A stretch of DNA of 64,000 nt from Pararhizobium sp. IMCC3301 (lineage in GTDB: Bacteria; Pseudomonadota; Alphaproteobacteria; Rhizobiales; GCA-2746425), in the NCBI RefSeq assembly GCF_030758315.1, contig NZ_CP132336.1, forward strand, positions 2,323,001 to 2,387,000, read 5' to 3'. Under the pieces are notes generated by a model that was given only the letters and a program-made list of their open reading frames with translations, searched no databases and was not told the origin of the DNA. The translations under genes were made by a program, and so were the position numbers. This document shows, one piece after another, positions 13,888-16,206 of the stretch (positions are counted from its first letter, which is position 1; the number at the start of each line of letters is the position of its first letter).

Positions 13888-13922
13888 ACCCGTGCAGGAT
13901 TTTATCCGGTGCGGGTTTTTTT
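13888..13922 (+). terminator. Rho-independent terminator of rpmE
   Basis: ACCCG...GGAT pairs with ATCC...CGGGT around a TTT loop, a 13-bp stem with two G-T pairs and one mismatch, followed by seven T. It begins 24 bp after the rpmE stop and touches the end of the converging DUF1465 gene. Confidence 0.85.
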
Positions 13923-14473
13923 CAGGTTTTGTCTGATGGCTGGAAGGCAGCGCTGAGGCGTGCCATCTGGTCAGCCAGCGCATCGCGCGCCACCGGTTCA
14001 GATACTGGCGCTCTGATACCGAATGACCGCCCGCCCATTCCGATATCCAGATGGCGGACACGCTCTTCCAGACGCCCCGACCGCTCAATCAGTTCCTTTA
14101 ACTCCGTCGGCAATTCATCCCAGCCAGCTCCGGTTCTGGACGGCTGCAGGCCGCCAAGGCGCACCTTTGCCTTTTCATCGATGCCCTGGCTGTTACTCAT
14201 TTCACCTTCATTGATCGCCCTTTGCAGCAAAAGCCATGATGCAATCTGCATCAGGCGCGTCGTCAGGCGCATTGATTCGCTGGCATAGGCAACCGATCCG
14301 AGCCGCGACAGCGACTTGGACACCGACCGTCCGGGACCGTCCAGATAGGACGCGGTTTCTTCAATCAACCGCATGCCACTATTGAACAGCGTCAGAAAGC
14401 CTTCGGTTTCCGCAATACGCGGTGCTATGGCGATGGCAGCCCGGCTCTTCGGCGTCTTGTCGTTGCGCGTCAT
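13922..14473 (-). CDS. DUF1465 / RcdA-type protein
   Basis: A 183-residue protein from the ATG at 14473; longer open frame upstream runs into low-complexity sequence and is unlikely to be coding. The core (about 20-110: EGFLTLFNSGMRLIEETASYLD, then RLTTRLMQIASWLLLQRA) matches DUF1465, the family of the Caulobacter adaptor RcdA, which helps the ClpXP protease degrade the cell-cycle regulator CtrA. A three-helix fold is expected. The tail (about 145-183) is acidic and flexible, as in RcdA, where it matters for adaptor function. An equivalent role here is inferred from family only. Confidence 0.8.
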   Translation of the reverse strand: MTRNDKTPKSRAAIAIAPRIAETEGFLTLFNSGMRLIEETASYLDGPGRSVSKSLSRLGSVAYASESMRLTTRLMQIASWLLLQRAINEGEMSNSQGIDEKAKVRLGGLQPSRTGAGWDELPTELKELIERSGRLEERVRHLDIGMGGRSFGIRAPVSEPVARDALADQMARLSAAFQPSDKT

Positions 14474-14705: not shown

Positions 14706-14736
14706 TGGGGAGGCTGGCACAATGCGGTCCATTGCC

Positions 14737-14843
14737 AAAAAAAAGAGCCGCGGGAGGGAGCGGCTCTTTAAGTCTAACAGGGAGGCATCCAAACAGATGG
14801 GGGAGTGACCATCTGCCGGTCTGGAACATCCAGACACACTTTA
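14737..14843 (-). ncRNA. Candidate trans-acting sRNA with CUCC loops (alpha-r14-like)
   Basis: On the minus strand three hairpins follow one another: GTCTGG/CCAGAC (14819-14835); CAGATGG/CCATCTG with loop TCACTCCC (14794-14815); and a 10-bp stem with loop TCCCTCCC (14742-14769) followed by eight T, a classic terminator. A single-stranded GCCTCCC lies between the second and third. Repeated CUCC motifs in loops are the hallmark of rhizobial anti-Shine-Dalgarno sRNAs of the alpha-r14/NfeR type, and length (about 105 nt) fits. The 507-bp gap between the RcdA-type gene and pobA holds this RNA, the 11-bp repeats and an A/T-rich stretch (14850-14920) where its promoter should lie; no clear -35/-10 was found. 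Confidence 0.68.
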
Positions 14844-14979
14844 AGGTAGCGTGTAAAGGTTAATAACTACTTAACAGATTATATTTTTGCCGTGCGGCGC
14901 TATTAAACAATTATTAACCCTGTCTGACTGCCTGCCCAGCGTTTCTCACGTTTCGGCGCACTGGGCACTGGGGACGCCT

Positions 14980-16206
<1,227 letters not shown>

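Follow-up and report, generated by a model that had tools for sequence, protein, structure and literature searches.

The 64,000-nt stretch of DNA analysed here (the window) carries a predicted small RNA (sRNA) gene between an upstream pobA-type gene and a downstream rcdA-type gene, all three on the minus strand (Table 1). The original prediction described an sRNA gene with anti-Shine-Dalgarno motifs, a terminator, and an extent of 14737-14843, and our analysis bears it out on each of these points. The three successive hairpins were reproduced by folding at the positions listed in Table 1; the last, described as a perfect terminator, has a 10-bp stem at 14769-14742 and is followed by a T-run, and the CUCCC motifs lie in the two loops (hairpin 2 and terminator) and the linker to which they had been assigned. 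The 5' end, placed near 14843, agrees with the match to R1, which runs from 14836, and with the start near 14836-14837 suggested by the promoter logo; R1 is our own covariance model, built from the predicted transcript only and with the window RNA in its training set. Based on its conservation, this locus almost certainly holds a real sRNA gene.

Table 1 Predicted features of the sRNA locus and its neighbours
Feature	Position	Strand	Basis
rcdA-type gene (DUF1465), conserved downstream neighbour	13922..14473	-	PF07323 168.5 bits, synteny
sRNA gene, borderline BjrC1505 family, predicted transcript ~100 nt	14738..14836	-	R1 72.5 bits
Hairpin 3, intrinsic terminator, loop UCCCUCCC, T-run	14738..14769	-	Folding and covariation
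Linker with conserved core GCCUCCCUGUU (14786-14776), likely pairing region	14770..14792	-	A4 conservation
Hairpin 2, anti-SD-like loop UCACUCCC	14793..14816	-	Folding and covariation
Hairpin 1, GUCUGG AUGUU CCAGAC	14819..14835	-	Folding and covariation
Predicted -10, TACCTT, weak match	14843..14848	-	Logo columns +26 to +31
Exact CtrA box TTAA-N7-TTAA, TTAAGTAGTTATTAA then CC	14860..14874	-	-90 from core, 0 mismatches
Second exact CtrA-like box TTAATAATTGTTTAA, upstream of the predicted sRNA promoter	14903..14917	-	Similar distance in relatives
pobA-type FAD monooxygenase, upstream neighbour	14980..16158	-	PF01494 296.1 bits

Compared with dinucleotide shuffles, the folding energy has z = -4.97 for 14737-14843 and z = -5.29 for 14731-14877, and 0 of 200 shuffles equalled it in either case. 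For 14737-14843, the optimal structure pairs part of hairpins 1 and 2 otherwise, whereas its centroid retains the second and third hairpins in full and the first for the most part. When the own-genome RNA is folded, the UCC of the core is mostly paired, forming a 3-bp GGA/UCC mini-hairpin in the linker, which counts against the reading that we prefer below.

Family assignment and covariation

BjrC1505 (RF02356) is the sole sRNA match from Rfam within the window; its full-length covariance model (positions 1-140) matches 14877-14738 at 50.6 bits, marginally above the cut-off of 50. The window RNA shares with BjrC1505 the core, the three hairpins, and the terminator, including the conserved GCCUCCCUGUU linker that is a trait of the family, and we regard it as a borderline member. 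The original report of BjrC1505 is said to concern B. japonicum, and no published role for it was found in the open-access literature. The family is thus already in Rfam; what is new is that CtrA likely controls it and that it is attached to rcdA throughout the order.

The original prediction had expected an RNA of alpha-r14/NfeR type and a corresponding covariance match; such a match exists, only to BjrC1505 rather than to alpha-r14 (RF02344), in which membership is ruled out on score (21.9 bits, cut-off 58.8). Membership in suhB/MmgR (RF00519), with which AbcR is partly homologous, is also ruled out on score (28.3 bits, cut-off 41). The alpha-r14/NfeR1 and AbcR/MmgR RNAs share hairpins, unpaired CUCC anti-Shine-Dalgarno motifs, and a terminator with the window RNA, and CUCC in successive hairpin loops, a feature of alpha-r14, is present here as an analogy only; both are multi-copy in S. 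meliloti according to the accessible text of a 2020 review (PMC7143759), whereas the window RNA is single copy. The same text ties two S. meliloti trans-sRNAs to the cell cycle, EcpR1 and GspR (PMC7143759). EcpR1 (SmelC291), in the available part of its description a Rhizobiales-wide, stress-induced cell-cycle sRNA, differs in lying between divK-pleD and rpmG, in having two hairpins with the loop UCCGCCGCAUCU, and in belonging to another family (PMC4414408); with pobA and rcdA as neighbours and UCCGCCGCAUCU absent from its sequence, the window RNA is not EcpR1.

R1 detects a single copy in the own genome, with 19.2 bits for the runner-up, and the second place for RF02356 scores 23.8. Of 61 genomes of the order, counting the own one, 43 exceed the RF02356 cut-off and 55 have a match at E<=1; at class level, 14 of 289 genomes exceed it. 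The other four same-genus genomes score 41.8-48.6, under the cut-off; at the curated cut-off none of seven Rhizobiaceae loci has an Rfam match, and the three scored with RF02356 reach 31.5-40.9 against 50. Extra sRNA copies were seen in a few genomes. In G269 there are two in tandem on one contig (C10:30-127 and 227-327) and one more at C15:29-126, all at contig ends, where assembly effects are possible; G061 has extra copies on C124 and C110; and the order-level loci L040, L045, L051, and L053 are further copies (R1 42.9-74.3) without rcdA in the stretch examined.

For the analysis of covariation, 149 transcripts were thinned at 88% similarity to 70 representatives, 57 of them non-Rhizobiaceae-type and 13 Rhizobiaceae-type. 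Alignment A4 holds 42 of the 57; 15 more divergent representatives, removed by hand, and the 13 Rhizobiaceae-type ones are not part of it. Because RNAalifold on A4 alone gave just hairpin 1 and one long-range pairing, which we take to be false, the three-hairpin structure was named by hand from single folds and then counted. For this structure, compensatory changes occur at 16 of 17 pairs (5/5, 6/6, and 5/6 of the counted pairs in hairpins 1, 2, and 3), 46 cells are changed on both sides compared with 10.4 +/- 2.8 in shuffles, and the paired cells fall from 89% to 36-50% when the partners are shifted by 1-3 columns. Minimum-energy folds with at least three hairpins were obtained for 40 of 42 A4 members, 12 of the 15 left out, and 13 of 13 Rhizobiaceae-type transcripts; a fourth hairpin is additionally present in the best fold of 27 of the 42 A4 members. 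All 70 non-redundant transcripts, the 13 Rhizobiaceae-type ones included, fold below z = -2 (mean -5.0).

Conservation in relatives, the absence of which had been named beforehand as speaking against the gene, is found in the linker as well as in the stems. The linker CCUCCCUGUU is the most conserved stretch of the RNA in the A4 columns, and the core CUCCCUGU occurs unaltered in 65 of the 70 representatives, in which its mean unpaired probability is 0.81 compared with 0.43 for the whole RNA, the core being higher in 65 of 65. Because the stems vary with their pairing kept and the linker GACGCCUCCCUGUU is nearly invariant, the RNA looks like a base-pairing sRNA whose seed lies in the linker. 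Family membership, the three covarying hairpins, and a core that is conserved and mostly unpaired across the family are thus what can be read directly from the sequences. The CUCC motif stands before the core and also in the terminator in five of five members in the window's genus, and its presence in the terminator distinguishes them from BjrC1505; among the 70 representatives, it stands before the core in 35 and after it in 16.

Linkage of the RNA gene to rcdA

CtrA is the master regulator of the cell cycle, and rcdA is a cell-cycle gene. Among 90 loci gathered with Rfam, a set in which weak and chance matches are included, an RcdA ORF was found in 63, without exception downstream of the RNA and on its strand. 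The rcdA gene is present at 28 of the 30 best order-level loci (L003-L032; missing in L012 and L017), and BjrC1505 relatives scoring 90-125 bits mostly show the same linkage. Because looking near RNAs would bias the linkage, loci were also chosen by the RcdA protein, using an RcdA alignment search of named genomes that takes in Stappia, Labrenzia/Roseibium, Devosia, Rhizobium, Ensifer, and Agrobacterium and keeping the best 80 of 560 confirmed candidates. Among these best 80 of 560, 11 of which belonged, like the window RNA, to the R1 training alignment, 78 have an R1 match upstream of rcdA at E<=4.5e-6, the next match having E = 0.68, and 76 have the core string upstream of rcdA. R1 misses L114, with only 327 nt upstream to scan, and L166, in which such an RNA was not seen upstream of rcdA. 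In the 78 loci (from the best 80 of 560), the distance from the RNA terminator to the start of the RcdA match is 87-426 nt. At two loci from two families outside the order, the gene examined downstream of the RNA (L066 1880-3127 and L078 1618-3144) encodes a Cys/Met PLP enzyme and is not rcdA.

On the upstream side, pobA precedes the RNA on the same strand here and lies near it in three of four same-genus relatives (tblastn), as it would if the RNA were merely the terminator or 3' UTR of its upstream gene and functionless by itself. This is very improbable: two covarying hairpins and the conserved core stand ahead of the terminator, a promoter-like CtrA box is conserved, and tblastn detected no pobA among L002-L032 and L036-L171, the upstream gene in S. 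fredii and A. vitis being a DUF1192 gene.

The arrangement in S. fredii, where a 100-nt R1 match (L137) lies between the DUF1192 gene and rcdA, all on one strand, also connects the family to an RNA already described. As given in the accessible text of PMC2573895 and PMC7143759, S. meliloti Sm84/SmelC671 is 100 nt long and lies on the forward strand between SMc03988> and SMc03989>, with a Northern band of ~80 nt (PMC2873474, PMC2573895). Its length and, by way of S. fredii, its gene order are like those of the window RNA, and on these two counts it is probably the S. meliloti homologue of the BjrC1505-family RNA.

The CtrA box and the predicted promoter

The exact CtrA box of the window is part of the sequence TTAAGTAGTTATTAACC at 14874-14858. 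Because the Rfam model overlaps this site, the RcdA-selected loci are the fair set in which to count it. In 73 of 76 such loci (from the best 80 of 560), the box is present with at most one mismatch, i.e. 46 of the 76 (best 80 of 560) have an exact box, 27 have one mismatch, and 3 have two; in 71 of the 76 (best 80 of 560), its position falls within one 16-nt range. When all units with at least 110 nt upstream were scanned (157 of 159), a box with at most one mismatch was found within 150 nt in 150, with a shuffle expectation of 17.4, and an exact box in 82, with a shuffle expectation of 1.1. The promoter logo has the order box, 9-nt spacer, TATTAT; relative to the start predicted from this order, the box spans roughly -38 to -24, and in the window the full TTAA-N7-TTAA likewise lies in the -35 region relative to that start. 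In Caulobacter, CtrA-activated promoters have the full motif near -35, e.g. at -39 in ctrA P2, according to the accessible text of PMC4287350. The predicted -10 of the window, 9 nt past the TTAACC half-site, is a poor match to the family consensus TATTAT, which counts against this promoter. CtrA itself is encoded in the own genome (NF045991, 420.7 bits, cut-off 350). The box at a fixed distance, the linkage to rcdA, and the CtrA protein are all evident in the sequences. We regard control of the RNA by CtrA as very likely.

It would follow that the first ~40 positions of RF02356, its 5' third, represent promoter DNA with the CtrA box, and in this the Rfam model differs from the window RNA as we delimit it. 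The 5' stems of RF02356 (positions about 1-40) coincide with the CtrA promoter, and the boundary of the family probably needs correction. The second CtrA-like box TTAATAATTGTTTAA is located at -133 in L001 and L034 (no mismatch) and L033 (one mismatch) and at -134 in L035 (one mismatch); it is missing in L036 of the same genus and thus present in three of four relatives, once exactly and twice with one mismatch.

Transcription might instead start ~35 nt earlier, at 14877, from the sigma-70-like element TTAATA-17-TATAAT at 14906-14878, with CtrA acting as a repressor or being irrelevant. The element agrees with the sigma-70 consensus at 10 of 12 positions, its TATAAT (14883-14878) stands directly ahead of the first position of the Rfam model, and the whole 147 nt folds well; moreover, Sm84, the probable S. 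meliloti homologue, was assigned a predicted sigma-70 promoter by its finders in the part of their report available (PMC2573895). We nevertheless consider this start rather unlikely: in the same-genus loci L033-L035 the exact TATAAT is absent from this place, the 5' region keeps TTAA-N7-TTAA instead, and the 5' stems of the Rfam model carry non-standard pairs in the window sequence. A longer transcript from the sigma-70-like TATAAT is possible in this one genome.

Whether the box belongs to the RNA or to rcdA can be judged from loci that lack rcdA. Across the class, R1 matches with E<=0.001 came from 53 of 289 genomes and amount to 58 places, and the box was checked at 27 of the 58, the better-scoring part (less L340, at a contig end, and L071 and L310, which were already among the loci). 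A box with at most one mismatch is present in the 60 nt before the RNA at 24 of these 27 places (expected 2.9), and rcdA is nearby at 13; at the 14 without rcdA in the stretch examined (1.5 kb or to the contig end), the box is kept in 13. A caveat is that the Rfam model, which overlaps the box at its 5' end, had turned up 25 of these 27 genomes beforehand; the two new to R1 (G276 and G087) both have exact boxes. In addition, the gap separating the RNA from rcdA contains a second exact CtrA box at all 44 Rhizobiaceae-type loci vs 0 of 34 others (from the best 80 of 560), and when one mismatch is allowed such a gap box is present in 52 of 78 RcdA-selected loci (best 80 of 560; 7.3 expected). In L092-L171, the gap box, of TTAACCCTTTCTTAAGA type, mostly lies about 120-165 nt ahead of the RcdA match. 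Because loci without rcdA keep the box and Rhizobiaceae carry an additional one for rcdA, the box appears to follow the RNA.

These loci also bear on the suggestion that the RNA is a cis-acting leader or attenuator of rcdA, i.e. that its terminator decides rcdA expression within a CtrA-driven transcript. The constant position of rcdA downstream on the same strand would suit such a leader, as would the presence of the RNA upstream of rcdA in nearly all of the best 80 of 560 and the CtrA motifs reported in the accessible text of PMC3616915 for S. meliloti rcdA and of PMC10469942 for agrobacteria, the latter with several rcdA start sites. A leader is nonetheless improbable in view of the strong terminator with the gap of 87-426 nt behind it, the box at rcdA-less loci, the two such loci that run into a Cys/Met PLP enzyme gene, and the separate box before rcdA in Rhizobiaceae-type loci; an antiterminator was not noticed on inspection of the computed folds. 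For S. meliloti, the accessible part of PMC4433202 describes a CtrA ChIP-seq signal at the rcdA promoter region and unchanged rcdA expression on CtrA depletion; binding without a response of rcdA is expected if the site serves another transcript, and because of the second Rhizobiaceae box the ChIP signal could come from either box. A report of a CtrA-driven sRNA at rcdA was not found in the open-access literature, subscription papers being outside the scope of the search.

Candidate targets and proposed action

Pairing with the ribosome sites of transporter mRNAs had been part of the original prediction. In the own genome, ORFs of at least 80 aa preceded by ACAGGGAG plus a start codon number 15, of which 10 encode transporter parts. 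For AAGGGAG ribosome sites, the fraction is about 17/30, based on the first 25 of 42 families listed and assuming that the SBP_bac_1 and Peripla_BP_5 rows repeat members counted as SBP_bac_8 and Peripla_BP_6 (here, 20 places without a locus gave 18 stretches, two pairs being the same site). The control motif AGAGGAA, for which 30 of 59 places were examined, gave transporter parts in 2 of 16. GGGAG sites thus precede transporters in about 27/45 cases vs 2/16 for AGAGGAA (Fisher p = 0.0012), and the longer match ACAGGGAG does not differ from AAGGGAG (10/15 vs about 17/30, Fisher p = 0.75). In G044, a genome of another family, 0 of 11 ACAGGGAG ORFs match a transporter family (Pfam). The transporter-target idea thus gains limited support, from the richness in transporters of genes with GGGAG sites; an extra preference for the longer complement is lacking, and the initial 10/15 is explained by the use of GGGAG ribosome sites in the own genome and is not repeated in G044. 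Because transporters here use GGGAG sites, any CUCCC RNA could pair with them, and the window RNA is not singled out. Solute-binding and other transporter genes of the own genome (G000) favour GGGAG sites, which may expose them to any CUCCC sRNA.

A role in nutrient uptake of the alpha-r14/NfeR or AbcR kind, exerted mainly on transporter mRNAs, would account for the 10 of 15 and for the excess of transporters in the GGGAG class. It would leave unexplained that the longer match is not enriched and that G044 shows nothing of the kind, and the scores under the ar14 and suhB/MmgR cut-offs also disagree with it; a main role at transporter mRNAs is accordingly unlikely. The best computed duplexes include an NMT1-type binding protein (12-nt perfect match, -23.3 kcal/mol) and an acyl-CoA synthetase (-24.8 kcal/mol).

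Comparable in some respects is CcnA of Caulobacter, in the accessible text of PMC8959179 an ncRNA that is probably CtrA-activated and acts through a C-rich loop at the ribosome sites of ctrA and gcrA. CcnA is encoded near the replication origin (PMC8959179), whereas the window RNA adjoins rcdA, and in a Caulobacter control genome RF02356 matches nothing at E<=1 and one place, below the cut-off, at E<=10. CcnA also appears to differ in its targets: CAGGGAG is present in 0 of 22 leaders (21 gcrA and the own ctrA; 110 nt), by which we rejected gcrA and ctrA as targets of the window RNA; GGGAG is present in 4 of the 22, and the own gcrA is the single case in which it stands close to the start codon. 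A conserved target with the full complement of the 14-nt core was likewise rejected, as 26 genomes yielded 21 perfect matches, of which 20 are the sRNA itself; the remaining one (G012 C292) is not an R1 match and does not adjoin rcdA or pobA.

Our preferred reading, to which we assign a probability of roughly 0.7, is that the locus encodes a CtrA-activated, independently transcribed trans-acting anti-Shine-Dalgarno sRNA of ~100 nt that belongs to the BjrC1505 family. Because a full CtrA site covers the -35 region of the predicted RNA promoter, CtrA~P would most likely turn on the RNA at those cell-cycle stages at which CtrA is active. Transcription would stop at the RNA's own terminator, ahead of rcdA. 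The linker CCUCCCUGUU would pair with GGGAG-type Shine-Dalgarno sequences, assisted in the window's genus by the CUCCC of two loops, and this pairing would reduce the translation of mRNAs with such sites. Transcription at this locus, activation rather than repression by CtrA, pairing with ribosome sites, and the choice of mRNAs hit are the steps that we infer; among them, an anti-Shine-Dalgarno action is reasonably likely.

The RNA is probably a widespread and overlooked part of cell-cycle control in related bacteria, judging from its distribution and its box. More broadly, BjrC1505 and its unannotated members in Rhizobiaceae may together act generally as non-coding output of CtrA, in Hyphomicrobiales and also outside this order, such that each CtrA pulse makes an anti-Shine-Dalgarno RNA ahead of rcdA, the gene for a CtrA-destroying adaptor, and the binding credited to the rcdA promoter is largely that of the RNA; we see the chances of this generalization as even. 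If true, it would explain why rcdA in S. meliloti is bound by CtrA yet unresponsive to its depletion. BjrC1505, a catalogue entry without a role, would gain a regulator, CtrA, and a place in a circuit beside rcdA, its 5' end would be corrected, and a pairing site open to testing would be defined; with the family extended to Rhizobiaceae, laboratory Sinorhizobium and Agrobacterium could be used directly.
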